A stretch of DNA of 64,000 nt from Nitrospirota bacterium. Its GTDB lineage: Bacteria; Nitrospirota; Thermodesulfovibrionia; Thermodesulfovibrionales; JdFR-88. Shown here piece after piece: positions 35,515 to 43,911 of the stretch (the first letter of the stretch is position 1; each line of letters starts with the position of its first letter). The DNA lies in the NCBI GenBank assembly GCA_021789935.1, contig JAJYIR010000005.1:1-64000 (forward strand). Direction: 5' to 3'. The position numbers and the translations under genes were made by a program. Below the pieces are notes generated by a model. That model had not been told where the DNA came from, did not search any database, and was given only the letters and a program-made list of their open reading frames with translations.

Positions 35515-37053
35515 ATGGCAGGCACAACTGTACTTGAAGCCGGGCCGCAGGCGGTCCGCTGCGAATTCGAGCGGCCCGGGCCGTTCAATCTGTTCATCTT
35601 CGGCGCCACCGGCGACCTGGCGAAAAGAAAGATATTCCCGTCTCTTTATCAGCTCAATACGCTGTCCCTGCTTCCGGAGGACTTCCTTATCGTGGGCTCA
35701 GGGAGAAAGAGCATGAGCACGGAGGAGTTCAGGCGGCAAATGCGCGAAGACGTCCGCAGCGCCGCGCCGGGCGGCAGGTTCGACCAGGGAAAATGGGAGG
35801 AGCTCGAGGGCAGGGTCCATTACATGCCGATGGAAGGCCGGGGGGCTTACGGCGCCATGCTTGAAAAATGCGTTCCGCTTGAGAAGCGTTACAGGACTTG
35901 CCGAAACCGTATTTTTTATCTCGCGGTGCCGCCCTCCGCATTCGATGACGTCATCACAAACCTGGGGGAGGCCGAGGCCGCCCGTGAGCCCGGAGAGGGA
36001 AATGAGGGATATTCGCATATCGTGGTGGAAAAGCCCTTCGGACGCGATACGGAGTCCGCAAGGCGGCTCAACGTCTTGTTGAGGAGATATTTCAGGGAGG
36101 AGCAGATATACCGGATGGACCATTTCCTGGCCAAGGAGACCGTCCAGAACATACTCATGTTCAGGTTTTCCAATGCCATTTTCGAGCCTGTCTGGAACAA
36201 CCATTACATAGACCACGTGCAGATAACTTCGGCGGAGACCATCGGCATTGAGCGCAGGGGGGCGTATTACGAGGAGTCCGGGGTGCTGAGGGACATGTTC
36301 CAGAACCATATGCTCCATCTCCTGGCGCTTACCGCAATGGAGCCCCCATCGGCTTTTGCCACCGCCAGGGTCAGAGGCGAAAGGGCCAAGGTGCTTGGCT
36401 CCATAAAGCCCCTTGACCCCCGGAGGACGGATGAGTTCCTGGCCCTGGGCCAGTACGGCCCCGGCAGAACGGACGGGGAAGAAATTCCGGCTTACAGAAG
36501 CGAACCCGGCGTGTCTCCGCAGTCTGGTACCGCCACGTATGCTGCGCTGAAACTGGAGGTCGAAAACTGGAGATGGCGCGGGGTGCCGTTTTATCTGCGT
36601 TCGGGCAAAAGGATGGCAAGCCGCAGGGGGGAGATATCCATCCACTTCAAACCTGTCCCCCATACGATTTTCAAGGGGTACGCGGGGGAAATAGAGCCCA
36701 ATACACTGACGCTCTGCATTCAGCCCAATGAGAAGCTGGACCTGTTCCTGCAGGCAAAGCAGCCGGGCTCCAGGATCTGCCTTGGCCCCGTCAGGCTGGA
36801 CTACACATACCCGGAAGGCATCGCTACGGCGGATTATGCACGAATCCTTCTTGACTGCATGCAGGGAGACCAGATGCTGTTTGCATGCGCGGAGGAGGTC
36901 GATGCCTCATGGGAGCTGCTTACCCCGGTGATAAGGAAAGCGGAATCCATTGGGATGAAGGATATTTTCCAGGATTATGCGGCCGGCTCGCAGGGGCCGG
37001 CCGCCGCGGATGCCCTGCTTGCCAGAGACGGCCGGGTATGGGACCCGCTTTGA
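35515..37053 (+). CDS. zwf: Glucose-6-phosphate 1-dehydrogenase
   Basis: 512 residues. Coenzyme-binding IFGATGDLAKRKIFP lies near residue 25, and the catalytic segment RMDHFLAKETVQNI contains the substrate-binding lysine and its histidine neighbour. It oxidises glucose-6-phosphate to 6-phosphogluconolactone, feeding the pentose phosphate pathway. A GGAGG lies about 10 nt before the ATG. A terminator follows at 37071-37104. It converges with the SemiSWEET gene. Confidence 0.96.
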   Translation: MAGTTVLEAGPQAVRCEFERPGPFNLFIFGATGDLAKRKIFPSLYQLNTLSLLPEDFLIVGSGRKSMSTEEFRRQMREDVRSAAPGGRFDQGKWEELEGRVHYMPMEGRGAYGAMLEKCVPLEKRYRTCRNRIFYLAVPPSAFDDVITNLGEAEAAREPGEGNEGYSHIVVEKPFGRDTESARRLNVLLRRYFREEQIYRMDHFLAKETVQNILMFRFSNAIFEPVWNNHYIDHVQITSAETIGIERRGAYYEESGVLRDMFQNHMLHLLALTAMEPPSAFATARVRGERAKVLGSIKPLDPRRTDEFLALGQYGPGRTDGEEIPAYRSEPGVSPQSGTATYAALKLEVENWRWRGVPFYLRSGKRMASRRGEISIHFKPVPHTIFKGYAGEIEPNTLTLCIQPNEKLDLFLQAKQPGSRICLGPVRLDYTYPEGIATADYARILLDCMQGDQMLFACAEEVDASWELLTPVIRKAESIGMKDIFQDYAAGSQGPAAADALLARDGRVWDPL

Positions 37054-37131: not shown

Positions 37132-37386
37132 TTATCCGTACCTTATCTTCAGCAAAATGATGATCATCCCAAGGGTGAACGAGACTATGTTTGTGAGGAT
37201 AACGGGAAGGGAGTTGATGGAAACCCCATAGAGGACCCACAAGACAAGTCCCGCGCACAGGGTGACGAACATGCCCAGCGAAACGTCCTTTGTGTGTTTT
37301 GACTTCCAGGCCTTGACCAGCTGGGGCACAAGTGAAAAGGTTGTAAGCGTGCCCGCCATGAACCCCGTTATGCTTCCGCCTTCCAT
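37132..37386 (-). CDS. SemiSWEET-type sugar transporter (PQ-loop)
   Basis: 84 residues with three membrane helices. The N-terminal helix carries the SemiSWEET PQ motif (TTFSLVPQLVKAWKSKHTKD), followed by SLGMFVTLCAGLVLWVLYG, where the conserved Trp and Asn-like positions sit. SemiSWEETs work as dimers and equilibrate small sugars across the membrane. It is the last gene of a leftward set behind the GH13 enzyme and the glucan dikinase, 39 nt after the GH13 stop. Confidence 0.88.
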   Translation of the reverse strand: MEGGSITGFMAGTLTTFSLVPQLVKAWKSKHTKDVSLGMFVTLCAGLVLWVLYGVSINSLPVILTNIVSFTLGMIIILLKIRYG

Positions 37387-37425
37387 GGCGTATATTGTAA
37401 CATTGCGGGCCTTCCCTGGTCAGGG

Positions 37426-38781
37426 TCAAGGTTTTGGTTTTTCCCTGGTGGTGATAAGCAATATCCCCTGGCCGGGCCTCAGGTCATATTCAAATGGCGA
37501 GGGCACGTAGTCAAGCCGGTACTCCGGAGAGATGTCCGCAACCGGCAGGCCGGATTGCAGGAATTTCAGCACCGCCTCCGTCTGGAAACGCTGTTTCTCC
37601 CTGATGTCCTTGTTAAGGATGAGCAGGCTTTCCTCGCTTCCGCTGGCTGAGGCCTTCCACATAACAAGCACATTTGGGTTTTCATATGGGAGCATGGCCG
37701 TCGGGGCCTCCTCCGCAAACAGGCTGTGAGCGGCTTTTATCTCATTGACCTCTTTTATGAATTCCCTCAGGTCGATTCCCGTTTCCCACGGTGACGTGGG
37801 CCAGTCCTGAGGGGTGGTGCTGACCACGTTAAGTCTTTTTCTGAGGCCGAATTCAAAACCCATGGGGATCATCACGCCGGCGGAAAAAAGGGCCGAAAAA
37901 AGGTAACGCTGCTTCATGCCCTCCACGCTGCCTCCAAGTTCTTCCGCCAGCCTTACCGTGTCATGGCTTTCGGGAAAGCTTATGGATGGGGCCATCTCCC
38001 TTGTAAGCGAATACTGCTCTATGAGCCAGTGGCCTTTCAGGTCCCACCATTTTGAGCTGTTGAAGATGTAATCGAAACCGGCGCTTGCTGTTTTCATTGT
38101 CTGGTCCGGCGGGCAGCCAAGCGTTTCGGCAAGAAAAAGGACCTGCGGGTGTTTTGCCTTTATTTCCCGGATGAGTCTTTCCCAGAAGCGGTTTGGCACC
38201 TGGTAGGCCGCGTCGCAGCGGAAACCTTCGAACCCCATATCAATAAGGTTTTCCACTACGCTTTTAAAGAAGCCGAACAGCGCCTCCGTGTCTTTTTCCT
38301 TTTCGATATTTTTTTTGCCTTTCCCCTCCCCTTCGCCGTAATAAAAAAAATCGAATTTGGCCAAGTCCTTCCAGACCACCTTCCTGCCGTCTTCGAACGC
38401 AAACGGGTGGGCCACCTTGCCTTTGGCTTCCCACAGGAACCATTCCGGATGGGTTTTCAAAAGCTCCGAGCCGGTGGAGCAGTGATTGACAACAAGGTCC
38501 GTCATCATCTTAAGCCCAAGCCCGCGGGCCTCCTCCCCCATGTCCTTTACCTGCCCGTTTGCAGATTTTTTGCTTTTTTCATCGAGGAAAGCCGGGTTGA
38601 TGGAGAAATAGTCGGAAATGGAGTAAAGACTGCGGGAAGGGCCGAGCTGCTGTATGGGGTTTATGAATATCCAGTTAAAGCCCATGCCGGCCGCCCTTTC
38701 CATGTGCTCAGCCCAACGGCTGAACTTCCCCGCAAGCAGGGGGAAAAGGTTATATATGTGCATTTTCCGTGCAGGTTTCAT
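37426..38781 (-). CDS. GH13 alpha-amylase family enzyme (GlgE/amylase-like)
   Basis: 451 residues, no signal peptide, so cytoplasmic. GH13 regions are complete: DLVVNH at 95-100, nucleophile Asp190 in GFRCDAA, acid/base Glu219 in FLAETLG, and SHD at 272-274. The RCDAAYQVPNRFW segment recalls GlgE-type maltosyltransferases and related amylases; the precise substrate cannot be assigned. It lies 57 nt downstream of the glucan dikinase gene on the same strand, so it probably acts on the same glucan. Confidence 0.85.
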   Translation of the reverse strand: MKPARKMHIYNLFPLLAGKFSRWAEHMERAAGMGFNWIFINPIQQLGPSRSLYSISDYFSINPAFLDEKSKKSANGQVKDMGEEARGLGLKMMTDLVVNHCSTGSELLKTHPEWFLWEAKGKVAHPFAFEDGRKVVWKDLAKFDFFYYGEGEGKGKKNIEKEKDTEALFGFFKSVVENLIDMGFEGFRCDAAYQVPNRFWERLIREIKAKHPQVLFLAETLGCPPDQTMKTASAGFDYIFNSSKWWDLKGHWLIEQYSLTREMAPSISFPESHDTVRLAEELGGSVEGMKQRYLFSALFSAGVMIPMGFEFGLRKRLNVVSTTPQDWPTSPWETGIDLREFIKEVNEIKAAHSLFAEEAPTAMLPYENPNVLVMWKASASGSEESLLILNKDIREKQRFQTEAVLKFLQSGLPVADISPEYRLDYVPSPFEYDLRPGQGILLITTREKPKP

Positions 38782-38838
38782 AAAAAAGTAAAGCCCCTTT
38801 CTTTATTGTCGAAAAAATAAAAATAAAAATAGAAAAAC

Positions 38839-41800
38839 CTAAAGGACCTGCGGCCTTGCCTGGACCACATAGAATTTCCCCCCGCAGTAAGCGCCTTCTA
38901 TATCCTGCGGACCGCCTGCCGCATCCTGCACCGCCGCGCCAGTCCGGGCCACCATGGACGTAAACTCCTTTAAAAACTTTTCATCCCATACAAGAGGGGT
39001 ATCGGAATAATCGAGCGCGACTTTTTCAGGTTTGGGCAGAATGAAGCTGTCATAGAGGCCTGCGCCCGCGTATCCGGCCAGGTCCTCCCCGTTGGAATCG
39101 GAGCGGAATATGAGTCCGCCGGAGGCGGGGGCAAAAACAAAAAACCCGCAGCTCTTTCCAGGCATGGAGAAAATGCGCGCCGCCTTTGCCCCTTTTCTGA
39201 AGGCGAAACCAAGGGGCATGCCGGGGTAATTGCCGGCCAGGGACTCTCCCAGGCCCAGCACGGCCTCGGCGTATATATCTTTCGTGTCCCCGGTTATCGG
39301 GTTTGCGGTATGGATGACGAAGCTCAGGTCCGAACTTACGACCTCCTGTATGAGGACCGACATGAAAAGACCCCCGCCGTCGATCCCGTTTGTCCGCCTG
39401 TTCAAGTAAGCCCGGTCATTCCATTTGGACGCCCATACACGCTTTATGCAAGCCCATGCGGCATCCCAGTCCGAGGGGGCGGGAAGCCCCGCGCCATCCA
39501 TAACCTCCATAAGCGGAGCGATGAGCGCGGCGGGTGCCTTAAGCCCTGCAATAATGTTTCTAAGCCCCGCCAGCGTCTCTTTAAAATCCAAGGCCGGAGT
39601 TTCTCTTTCTCCGGAACTCCCCGCCAGTTTTTCTTCAAGCCCGCGATATGCCTTTTCCGCCCGGCTGTTTTCCTCAAGGCCCAGCACCTTTTCAAAGACG
39701 CCAAAGGGGATGGCCGCAGAACGGGGGATGTTTATCCAGGCCGGGAGTTTTTTTTCAATTAGGCGTTTCAGGTTTATGGATTTGTAGCCGACCGTACGTT
39801 CCGTGAACCCGTCGGCAGGAATGGCCCATCCGCTCCAGCCCGGCTGCCCGCCCGGAATTATTTTACTTTTTCTGTCCGTAACACCCGAGGGGGCCTCTTG
39901 CTTTTTTCCCGCGGCGCCTTTTTTTACGCCTGCAATCCGTTTTTTTGTCTTGTCTTCTTCACTGAACAGGACCTCTCCGGCCGCGGTGGCATCAAGCCTT
40001 AAGGAGCGTCCCTCCATGGACTTTATCTGCCCGATGATGTCCGGCTCCAGGCAGGCCGCGAAAAAGACGCCAGCGTTCCTTGCCCGTATGGCCAGGTGCG
40101 AGAGCCTGTCTATTGTGGAAGGCGTTATGATGGCGGAAACCCCGGCCGGTATGTCCTCATCCCCGGATATCCTGTCCGCCACCAGGACAACAGGATTTTT
40201 TGTTTTTGAAAAATCCTGCCCCTGGAGCTCCTTTAGTGAGGCCGCAAGTTTCACCTGCCCGCCTGCGGAGGGCTGTCCGTCTGTTGCCGCCCCCCGGCTT
40301 ATTATCAGCCAATTGCCCATTGCGGCGCTTTTTCTGAGCAGCGGGTCGATACGGCGCAGGAGGGCAGACAGAGCAAAGACGGGTCTGCCCCGCAACGCTT
40401 CCTCGGCAAAGAGCCTGACAGACCACGGCTCCGCATGGAAGGCGGCGCCCATGCGTTTGGCTGCCGGCTGAAGGAGCGAATGCATGCGGCTGGCGTAATC
40501 CCCTATGGCGCGCCCGGTGCGCTCAAGGTCCGCTTCCGCCCGAAGCGCCCAGGGTTTTTTTTTGAACCTGGTGACTTTTTCCGCCTCAAGACGCCTCCAG
40601 AACCCGAAGCAAAGCTGCAGTTCTTCTTCACAAAGCGAAAGCCAGACATTTTCAAACGCAAGCGAGAAGAGCTCCACAAGGCCGGCCGCGTTGAATTTCC
40701 GTTCATCGGGCACGTCCCCGGTGGCCCGCTCCACAGCCGCTCTCAGGGAATCCTCCAGCGCCATGTCCAGGAAAAGCAGGTCTCGCGTGTCCTCCGCCTT
40801 TGCGCCGGAGAGGGTTCTGTCCGTCAGGAGTCTTCTGGCCTCGATTATTTTTTTGGCAAGGGGCAAAGCCGGCGCGGAGCGGCCGCCGGAGAGTGACGGG
40901 CGCGCCGCCCGGATTGCTTCTATAAGCCCTTTTGTCTCATCGTCAAGAAGCCTCCCGGCGCCCGCGGCCGCCGCATCCAGGTCCGTACCGGAATGGACCT
41001 CCTTCAGTATGGAAAGAAAATTCTCAAAATCGTGGATCAGCGGCCCTTTCAGGTCCGCACTGAAGTCCGGGTGGGACTTGATCGGCCTATCGTAGCTTTC
41101 AAGCCTCTCTTTCGACACCCCCCCTTGGGAGAGTCTTTTGTAAAAGATCTCCAGGTTTCCGTCGCTTTTCAGGAAATCAAGATAGGCCTCGCAGATAATT
41201 ATGTCATCGGGCGTCGCATTATTGTGCAGTTTCTGGTGCCACTCTTCCATGAAATGTCCGGAGACTTCTTTTATGCCGTGCCGGTGCATGATGTTCAGTA
41301 CTTCATCCCGTACCCTCTGCGCATCGCTGCCCCGCCCAAGGGTTGTCATTATGAGCCTTATCATCTCGCGCTCCCCTGGCGCTTCCCTGTATCGTCCGGC
41401 AAGCTTTGCCGAAAGCCGGTCCAGTGCATGCCCCAGCTCTCCGGGCTTTGTGTTGTAGTTGCGCTGCCAGTCAAGCTGCCGCAGGGCAGAGAACCGGAGC
41501 CATACATATATGAGGGCCAGCCCGCCTGTATCGTTTTGCCCGATCCTGTCCAGCAGGTCAAAGCAGAGATTGTACCTGTGCATCAGCGTCCAGGAGTTCC
41601 GCCCCGTTTCCATGGCGGCTATCTCGGCCTCGATTGCTTCTGTTCCGGCCGTCCCTGCCCCGGCTGGTTTGGGTCCTTCCGTGGGACCTCCGCCTTCGGC
41701 TGGTCCGGCTTCAGACGGGCCCGTTTCCGGTTTTCCCCCGGTTTTGGGCCGTTTTTCCGGAGCGGGCAGTTCCACCCGGTAGTTCCTGCCAAGGTTGTTG

Positions 41801-42129
41801 TCCCAGCTCCCGTCGCCGGGGAAAAAAAGGACGAAGTCCATGAGACTGAAGCCGGTATCGCGGTCTATCGTGATTACGATCTGTCCGGCGCCGGGTTCCA
41901 AAAGGTTCCGGAGCGCGGCATGATCGAACGGATGGCTTCCGGAGGGCCAGTTCCGCTCCGGAGGGACATACCATGGGCCGTCAGGTTCTTTTCTCAGCCC
42001 CCAGTGCAGGATGAAAGGCTCTTTTATGTCCTCAGCCTTTATGATTACTTCAATCGAGTCTTCCCAGACGCGTTTTTCCACAAAAAGCACGATCCCGCTC
42101 TCTGTGCTGATCTTGTTGACCGGAGACAT
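38839..42129 (-). CDS. Alpha-glucan water dikinase-like protein
   Basis: 1096 residues. An N-terminal carbohydrate-binding-like region (about 1-120) is joined by a Pro/Gly-rich linker to the dikinase core. Signatures are EEWHQKLHNNATPDDI at 296-310, the phosphohistidine segment RLSHLAIRARN (His678) and SDSNGEDLAGYAGAGLYDS in the C-terminal PPDK-type nucleotide-binding domain. GWD enzymes transfer the beta-phosphate of ATP to glucose units of starch or glycogen, releasing AMP. Plant GWD is longer (about 1400). A second low-complexity linker lies near residue 740. It heads the set GWD-GH13-SemiSWEET. PEP synthase is excluded by these signatures. Confidence 0.9.
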   Translation of the reverse strand: MSPVNKISTESGIVLFVEKRVWEDSIEVIIKAEDIKEPFILHWGLRKEPDGPWYVPPERNWPSGSHPFDHAALRNLLEPGAGQIVITIDRDTGFSLMDFVLFFPGDGSWDNNLGRNYRVELPAPEKRPKTGGKPETGPSEAGPAEGGGPTEGPKPAGAGTAGTEAIEAEIAAMETGRNSWTLMHRYNLCFDLLDRIGQNDTGGLALIYVWLRFSALRQLDWQRNYNTKPGELGHALDRLSAKLAGRYREAPGEREMIRLIMTTLGRGSDAQRVRDEVLNIMHRHGIKEVSGHFMEEWHQKLHNNATPDDIIICEAYLDFLKSDGNLEIFYKRLSQGGVSKERLESYDRPIKSHPDFSADLKGPLIHDFENFLSILKEVHSGTDLDAAAAGAGRLLDDETKGLIEAIRAARPSLSGGRSAPALPLAKKIIEARRLLTDRTLSGAKAEDTRDLLFLDMALEDSLRAAVERATGDVPDERKFNAAGLVELFSLAFENVWLSLCEEELQLCFGFWRRLEAEKVTRFKKKPWALRAEADLERTGRAIGDYASRMHSLLQPAAKRMGAAFHAEPWSVRLFAEEALRGRPVFALSALLRRIDPLLRKSAAMGNWLIISRGAATDGQPSAGGQVKLAASLKELQGQDFSKTKNPVVLVADRISGDEDIPAGVSAIITPSTIDRLSHLAIRARNAGVFFAACLEPDIIGQIKSMEGRSLRLDATAAGEVLFSEEDKTKKRIAGVKKGAAGKKQEAPSGVTDRKSKIIPGGQPGWSGWAIPADGFTERTVGYKSINLKRLIEKKLPAWINIPRSAAIPFGVFEKVLGLEENSRAEKAYRGLEEKLAGSSGERETPALDFKETLAGLRNIIAGLKAPAALIAPLMEVMDGAGLPAPSDWDAAWACIKRVWASKWNDRAYLNRRTNGIDGGGLFMSVLIQEVVSSDLSFVIHTANPITGDTKDIYAEAVLGLGESLAGNYPGMPLGFAFRKGAKAARIFSMPGKSCGFFVFAPASGGLIFRSDSNGEDLAGYAGAGLYDSFILPKPEKVALDYSDTPLVWDEKFLKEFTSMVARTGAAVQDAAGGPQDIEGAYCGGKFYVVQARPQVL

Positions 42130-42330
42130 GGACTGGTTATGTTCCCCTTCGATTTTTTTAAATTTTGGACCTGAGATTACGGCAAGTCTTACTAAAGACT
42201 ATCGAAATTATGCAGGATGGTCAACCGGCCGCCGCCTTTGCATACGCCTGTTGCGCCTGGCAAAAATTTTTTTAGGCGGTCCCGCGAACAACTTAAAAAT
42301 CCTGGCCTTTTTATGTTAAAATCCATTCCT

Positions 42331-43911
42331 ATGGCTGAAGAAAAAGAAAAAGAAAAAGAAAAAACCGTAAACGAACTTGTGGAGCAGAGGCTCAAAAAAA
42401 TGAAGGAGCTCAGAGAGGCGGGCATAGAGCCTTACGCCGCTCCCTGGCCGGCCAAAGACCATGCGCAGCAGCTCCTGGATGAATACGGGCCGAAACCCAA
42501 GGAGGAGCTTGAAGGCGCCGCCGTCCGCGTCTCGCTTTCGGGCAGGCTGATAACGATAAGGGATTTCGGCAAGGCATCCTTCGCGCACATCCAGGACCCT
42601 ACGGGAAAGATACAGCTCTACTTCAAAAAGGACATAACCGGGGAGGAAAAATATTCCTTTTTTAAAAAATACCTGGATATGGGGGACATCATCGGGGTTG
42701 CCGGGCCCCTTTTTAAAACCCGCACGGGCGAGCTTACGGTAGAGGTGGAGGACTTCCGGCTTCTTTCAAAAGCCCTTCATCCACTGCCCGAGAAGTGGCA
42801 CGGGCTTCATGACGTGGAGACCCGCTACCGCCAGAGATACCTGGACCTCATAACGAACCCGCAGGTGAAGGAGACTTTCAGGTTAAGAAGCACCATAATC
42901 AAGTCTGTAAGGGACTTTTTTGAAAAAGAGGGGTTCATCGAGGTTGAGACCCCTATGATGCACCAGATAGCCGGCGGGGCCGCCGCAAGGCCCTTCAAGA
43001 CCTATCACAATGCTCTGGATATCGAGCTGTTCCTGCGTATAGCGCCCGAACTCTATCTTAAAAGGCTCCTTGTTGGCGGATATGAAAGGGTCTTTGAGCT
43101 TAACAAGAATTTCAGGAACGAGGGCATATCGACAAAGCACAACCCGGAGTTCACGATGCTGGAGTTCTACATGGCAAACCAGGACTATGAATTTTTGATG
43201 TCATTCACCGAGCATATGTTCGGTGAGCTGGCCATGAAGACACTTGGAAAACTTAAATTCCCCTACCAGGACATAGAGATAGACTTCACTCCTCCGTGGC
43301 CCCGTTATCCGATGCTCGAGATCATGAAAGAAAAAGGTGTGCCTGAAGAGGCTCTTTGGGACAGGGAAAAGGCGGTCGTGTGGGCAGCCTCCAAGAATAT
43401 CCATACGGAGAAAGGAGCCTCTCTGGGCAAGGTGCTGGATGAAATATTCAAGGAAAAGGTTGAACCCTTTCTTGTTCAGCCTGCTTTCATCACCGACTAC
43501 CCGGTGGAGCTTTCACCCCTGGCAAAGAAAAAGCCTTCAAACCCGGCCCTGGTGGAGCGGTTCGAGCTTTTCATCGCGGGCCGCGAGATAGCCAATGCCT
43601 TCTCGGAGCTTAACGACCCCATAGACCAGAGGGAGAGGTTTTTGAAGCAGGTTGAGGCCAAGGCCCACGGGGACGAGGAAACGCACCCGATGGATGAGGA
43701 TTATGTAAGGGCTCTGGAGTACGGGATGCCGCCGGCGGCAGGCGAGGGCGTGGGCATAGACAGGCTGGTGATGCTGCTTACCAACTCCGCATCCATAAGG
43801 GACGTGATACTTTTCCCCCAGTTGAAGCCCTCAGTGCCAGTGTCCGGAAAAGTTGAAGCAAAATCAGATGCCAGAGACGATCAGGACGCAAACCCAGATT
43901 CTCAATCGTAA
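42331..43911 (+). CDS. lysS: Lysyl-tRNA synthetase (class II)
   Basis: 526 residues. An N-terminal OB-fold anticodon domain (about 60-170) is followed by the class II core: motif 2 FELNKNFRNEGISTKHNPEF with TMLEFYMA, and motif 3 GEGVGIDRLVML. A Lys/Glu repeat EEKEKEKEK opens the protein. ATG at 42331 is chosen over 42313 and 42217 because a TAAAAT hexamer ends 8 nt upstream, leaving no room for a leader. A non-conserved tail of about 20 residues follows the usual end. Confidence 0.96.
   Translation: MAEEKEKEKEKTVNELVEQRLKKMKELREAGIEPYAAPWPAKDHAQQLLDEYGPKPKEELEGAAVRVSLSGRLITIRDFGKASFAHIQDPTGKIQLYFKKDITGEEKYSFFKKYLDMGDIIGVAGPLFKTRTGELTVEVEDFRLLSKALHPLPEKWHGLHDVETRYRQRYLDLITNPQVKETFRLRSTIIKSVRDFFEKEGFIEVETPMMHQIAGGAAARPFKTYHNALDIELFLRIAPELYLKRLLVGGYERVFELNKNFRNEGISTKHNPEFTMLEFYMANQDYEFLMSFTEHMFGELAMKTLGKLKFPYQDIEIDFTPPWPRYPMLEIMKEKGVPEEALWDREKAVVWAASKNIHTEKGASLGKVLDEIFKEKVEPFLVQPAFITDYPVELSPLAKKKPSNPALVERFELFIAGREIANAFSELNDPIDQRERFLKQVEAKAHGDEETHPMDEDYVRALEYGMPPAAGEGVGIDRLVMLLTNSASIRDVILFPQLKPSVPVSGKVEAKSDARDDQDANPDSQS

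Follow-up and report, generated by a model that had tools for sequence, protein, structure and literature searches.

Gene layout and domains of the dikinase

The window, i.e., the whole 64,000-nucleotide stretch of DNA analyzed here, lies within contig C34 of a genome of 2.47 Mb (60 contigs, completeness estimate 100%), which was assigned to the phylum Nitrospirota by its named relatives. Genes for a predicted alpha-glucan water dikinase (GWD), a GH13 enzyme, and a SemiSWEET transporter follow one another on the minus strand, with gaps of 57 nt and then 39 nt, and the ORFs agree with the genes, order, strand, and spacing given in a preliminary description of this DNA. Upstream of GWD lies the divergent lysS (42217-43911), and downstream of SemiSWEET lies the convergent zwf (35515-37053). 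The following features were located:

37132..37386, minus strand: SemiSWEET transporter, 84 aa (NCBIfam SemiSWEET_2); contiguous, but not conserved with the other two genes
37426..38781, minus strand: predicted GH13 alpha-glucan-active enzyme, 451 aa (Pfam; catalytic D190, E219, and D274 kept)
38839..42129, minus strand: predicted alpha-glucan water dikinase (GWD), 1096 aa (ORF, Pfam, phmmer, motifs)
39241..39456, minus strand: PPDK_N-type ATP-binding domain of GWD, top-scoring part, residues 892-963 (Pfam, structure search)
39946..40266, minus strand: phosphohistidine domain of GWD, PF22973, residues 622-728 (Pfam)
40096..40098, minus strand: codon of His678, the predicted phospho-acceptor, in SHLAIRARN (alignment, motif reading)
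40324..41679, minus strand: central helical domain of GWD, residues 151-602 (phmmer against 9ha9, 40% identity)
41218..41238, minus strand: HQKLHNN motif of GWD, residues 298-304, then ATPDD (motif reading)
41767..42105, minus strand: N-terminal Ig-like domain of GWD, PF23166, residues 9-121 (Pfam); glucan binding possible

In the dikinase, Pfam recognized Ig_N_CWD1, GWD1_pHisD, and, partially, PPDK_N, all over cut-off (61 bits for PF23166 and 92.8 bits for PF22973, with a cut-off of 27 for both), and gave no match to a PEP/pyruvate-binding C-terminal domain. The central domain matched 9ha9 with a phmmer E value of 1.1e-87; 9ha9 and 9qvi were the closest solved structures (E about 1e-87), and we take both, from our reading of the PDB entry ('Alpha-glucan water dikinase, chloroplastic'), to be potato GWD1. 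Identity to this potato domain was 40% for the window GWD and 35-44% for 71 bacterial GWDs, compared to 17-22% for 19 PWD-like proteins (described below). HQKLHNN and the histidine of SHLAIRARN (His678) were invariant across the bacterial GWDs aligned. These domains, the 9ha9 match, and the motifs at residues 298-304 and 678 confirm that the hallmarks first reported for this protein are present, and they argue strongly for a GWD-type rather than a pyruvate dikinase.

An AlphaFold model of the protein (pLDDT 80) gave the ATP-binding domain of rifampin phosphotransferase as its fold match, and a Foldseek search with the full model returned mainly the ATP domain, with 9ha9 absent among the best 50 matches. 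For the Ig-like domain, which is possibly glucan-binding, the Foldseek hits to CBM21 and to starch-binding domains were very weak (E about 0.2-0.4). The redox motif of plant GWD, which is regulatory and not defining, reads CFATC. In the window GWD it reads FFAAC, and none of the bacterial GWDs for which this motif was read has the first Cys; plant-style thioredoxin control is therefore unlikely.

GWD is associated with GH13, and SemiSWEET is incidental

The GH13 protein matched hDGE_amylase/Alpha-amylase in Pfam. Of 296 genomes of the phylum that were searched for the family, 22, spread over nine families, had GWD over cut-off and 274 did not. The same GH13 type, with invariant catalytic residues, was present in 12 of the 22 genomes with GWD compared to 4 of the 274 without it, at a threshold (E at most 1e-200) chosen after viewing the matches, which left a gap from about 1e-128 to 1e-223. 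The four genomes G262, G217, G156, and G207 carry the GH13 type without GWD or TIM1 (a TIM barrel protein, see below). Judged by gene content, the association between GWD and GH13 is genuine.

The tree placed the window GWD in a well-supported five-member clade in which the lysS-GWD-GH13 neighborhood is conserved. The SemiSWEET gene, which scored 100.5 bits with profile NF037968 (cut-off 80), was found beside GWD at only 1 of 80 other fetched loci, L102 from a close relative, where the encoded protein is 76% identical and the gene lies about 520 nt past GH13. It was absent from L103 and L130, which belong to the same clade; the sequence of L098 ends inside GH13. By eye, the interval between SemiSWEET and zwf at L102 (10090-13415) holds a gene that is glycosyltransferase-like and another that may encode a debranching-type enzyme, neither of which lies at this place in the window.

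The set of GWD, GH13, and SemiSWEET originally proposed thus holds across bacterial loci for its first two members, and SemiSWEET was rejected as a member of the module; by its distribution, it is incidental. An export path of three genes, with SemiSWEET carrying the released sugar away, would fit the 39-nt gap, the shared strand, and the L102 homolog, but the gene is missing at all other fetched GWD loci, including those of the clade mates, and we regard such a path as very improbable.

A recurrent gene module surrounds bacterial GWDs

A scan of a genome collection yielded 137 bacterial GWD loci, of which 80 were fetched for their neighborhoods. This number corrects the initial view that GWD is uncommon outside plants and algae; the window's own genome also has a second copy. 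By record title, which for metagenome bins is not verified taxonomy, hosts among the fetched loci include Nitrospirota, Desulfobacterota/Deltaproteobacteria, Verrucomicrobiota, Planctomycetota including Scalindua, Acidobacteriota, Myxococcota, Nitrospinota, Fibrobacterota, Chromatiales, and others. A plasmid search returned partial matches only, at <60% identity and mostly of PEP synthase/Rph types. Viral contigs yielded no relatives when scanned with the alignments of GWD and the PWD-like proteins, and the tree therefore has no algal or viral outgroup.

Five kinds of gene recurred around bacterial GWDs, encoding a PWD-like dikinase, the AP_endonuc_2-type TIM barrels TIM1 and TIM2, GH13, and a GlgA-type GT5. 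TIM1 was the next gene after GWD, in the same orientation, at 35 of the 63 loci with enough sequence and also exists as a free protein, while TIM2 is free or fused to GH13. At L051, L053, and L059, the AP_endonuc_2-like TIM2 is fused at the N-terminus of GH13 (781-788 aa); elsewhere it is a free gene of ~340 aa. In two genomes (L175 and L180), GH13 is clustered with GlgA at a distance from GWD, with TIM1 alongside in L180, and both clusters also hold a ~530-aa protein that is GH57-like by eye. These neighborhoods point to a bacterial glucan-phosphorylation module across many phyla, consisting of GWD, the PWD-like dikinase, GH13, GlgA, and the two TIM barrels.

The PWD-like dikinase has GWD-type phosphohistidine and ATP domains, falls in a clade deeply apart from GWD, and carries QNKLHR[CS]AGPE in place of HQKLHNN. 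Plant PWD has a similar motif; a PDB search found no plant PWD. In 23 of 25 PWD-like ORFs, TIM1 is fused as an N-terminal AP_endonuc_2 barrel. An alignment of 28 TIM1 sequences showed nine invariant positions (H73, H107, E138, D169, H172, H198, D209, H211, and E245), and these align, via 5zhz and MJ1311 (3wqo), with the metal-ligand positions of endonuclease IV. The TIM1 model (pLDDT 91) matched the folds of MJ1311, AP endonucleases, and sugar 3-epimerases, and weak similarity to CbiR was seen in NCBIfam. Sugar 3-epimerases match the fold equally well, so that TIM1 could instead be a sugar epimerase; the fold search matches phosphoesterases and epimerases alike and does not separate them. The ligand set favors a multi-metal phosphoesterase and, as TIM1 is also found fused to a dikinase of the phosphoglucan type, makes it a candidate phosphoglucan phosphatase.

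Within the phylum sample, TIM1 (E at most 1e-30) was present in 20 of 22 genomes with GWD and in 0 of 274 without it; the two exceptions, the window's genome and G120, belong to one family. Since several genomes carry TIM1 at a distance from GWD or on a different contig, linkage alone is insufficient to account for this co-occurrence. Among 20 further genomes, mostly from other phyla and mostly picked since TIM1 had not been recognized beside GWD, 16 had TIM1, with several of the matches in long frames representing fused forms on other contigs. A GlgA-type GT5 was found in all 22 genomes with GWD, and at least two GT5 matches in 14 of these compared to 4 of the 274 others. Fisher values for TIM1, the GH13 type, and GT5 (4e-29, 1e-12, and 3e-15, respectively) are descriptive, as shared ancestry is ignored.

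Glucan-store genes and a second GWD in the window's genome

A glycogen synthase in the same genome had been suggested as something to look for, and the genome was found to encode GlgA (C14), a CBM48-bearing GlgB-like protein of 638 aa (C56), and phosphorylase-family proteins (C4, C21, and C22). With only one GT5, there is no hint that this species makes an elaborated starch-like polymer. A second GWD, 49% identical to the window copy, is encoded on C30 (G000:C30:577-3621, locus L038), and the two copies fall in distinct clades. By eye, the neighbors of the second copy are cyclopropane-fatty-acid-synthase-like and GH1-like, with no glycogen genes. PPDK_N proteins separate from GWD are encoded elsewhere in the genome; one PPDK_N match (G000:C58:15837-16736) lies inside a 1513-aa frame.

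Neither a PWD-like gene nor TIM1 (E at most 1e-30) was found in the window's genome. When seven related genomes were searched with the TIM1-PWD profile, TIM1 was found only in the genome carrying L098, and no match spanned a PWD-like gene, save for the GWDs themselves. In the lineage of the window, PWD and, for the most part, TIM1 seem either to have been lost or never to have been present, with GWD and GH13 remaining.

Proposed role in glucan turnover and alternatives

The bacterial GWD probably phosphorylates the cell's own alpha-glucan store, which GH13 and phosphorylases then degrade or trim, with the PWD-like dikinase and TIM1 cooperating elsewhere. This reading draws on the family, domain set, active-site residues, linkage, co-occurrence, and glucan-store genes, from which we infer the substrate, the phosphate transfer, the order of steps, the effect on degradation, and the activity of TIM1. 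His678 would take the beta-phosphate of ATP, and the phosphate would be passed on to glucosyl residues of the store; glucan phosphorylation by the window GWD is likely. Phosphorylation would open or solubilize the glucan, the insolubility of which is suggested by analogy, and the co-encoded GH13 and the phosphorylases of the genome could then degrade or trim the loosened polymer. In other bacteria, GWD may act alongside the PWD-like dikinase and TIM1, a predicted multi-metal TIM barrel that would take the phosphate off again; in the window's lineage, where PWD and TIM1 are missing, GWD and GH13 would be what is left of this system. More tentatively, many bacteria could have a plant-like cycle of phosphorylation and dephosphorylation, in which GWD and the PWD-type enzyme add phosphate and TIM1, often fused to PWD, represents a new class of phosphoglucan phosphatase. 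Such a cycle may be older than, or independent of, the plant one.

It is unlikely that the dikinase has switched to a different substrate, such as an exopolysaccharide, a metabolite resembling maltodextrin, or a protein, and that GH13 remodels that polymer. The ATP-binding fold is common to rifampin phosphotransferase and PEP synthase, which have widely different substrates, and the window GWD is in a clade distinct from that of the second copy, which is without glycogen neighbors; against this, the central domain and motifs are about 40% identical to plant GWD1, and the neighbors and co-occurring genes encode glucan enzymes. Least credible is that the name GWD is wrong and the protein is a pyruvate water or phosphate dikinase or a phosphotransferase for an antibiotic. 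A PPDK_N domain is present, and NCBIfam gave weak matches, each far short of its cut-off, to PEP synthase and Rph, but the PPDK_N match spans only about 70 residues, and other PPDK_N proteins of the genome can cover that function. Action on pyruvate, named in the preliminary description as a result that would speak against its reading, is disfavored because Pfam finds no PEP/pyruvate-binding domain in the protein, while its GWD-specific domains are over cut-off.

Relation to known glucan phosphorylation systems

With the PWD-like proteins as outgroup, the potato GWD1 sequence attaches at the base of the bacterial GWDs, on a long branch; as the only plant sequence in the tree, it is not enough to give the direction of transfer. 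Because bacterial GWDs occur in many phyla and in operon structures, an old bacterial history of GWD is worth testing, and the bacterial sequences can be used for tracing the origins of plant GWD and PWD. Bacterial GWD homologs were already included in the GWD tree of the 2018 Goniomonas paper, which mentions possible lateral transfers to some bacteria and in which we found no discussion of the module, the PWD-like partner, TIM1, the GH13 link, or the distribution (PMC6260743). The preliminary statement that the combination had not been described therefore needs qualifying with respect to bacterial GWDs themselves, and stands for the module, of which we have found no published account so far. 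The finding matters most for the module and TIM1: a conserved bacterial module makes bacterial glycogen phosphorylation directly testable, and TIM1, a near-constant and uncharacterized partner, is a candidate new glucan phosphatase.

The window GWD shares its Ig-like, HQKLHNN, phosphohistidine, and ATP-binding domains with plant and algal GWD1 (EC 2.7.9.4; potato 9ha9 and 9qvi), with 40% identity in the central part. Compared to plant GWD1, it is shorter and has no CBM45 match in Pfam, and bacterial GWDs are without the first redox Cys and are encoded beside GH13 and often TIM1. The bacterial PWD-like proteins resemble plant PWD/GWD3 (EC 2.7.9.5) in forming a second, deeply separate dikinase clade beside GWD. 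Plant PWD carries CBM20 N-terminally, whereas in the bacterial proteins the AP_endonuc_2 barrel (23/25 ORFs) takes this place. TIM1 has the fold and the nine metal-ligand positions of endonuclease IV and other AP_endonuc_2 metalloenzymes, yet it is linked to glucan dikinases and not to DNA repair. The phosphoglucan phosphatases SEX4, LSF2, and laforin are dual-specificity phosphatases (PMC12892837); the same role is proposed here for TIM1, which is an unrelated TIM barrel.
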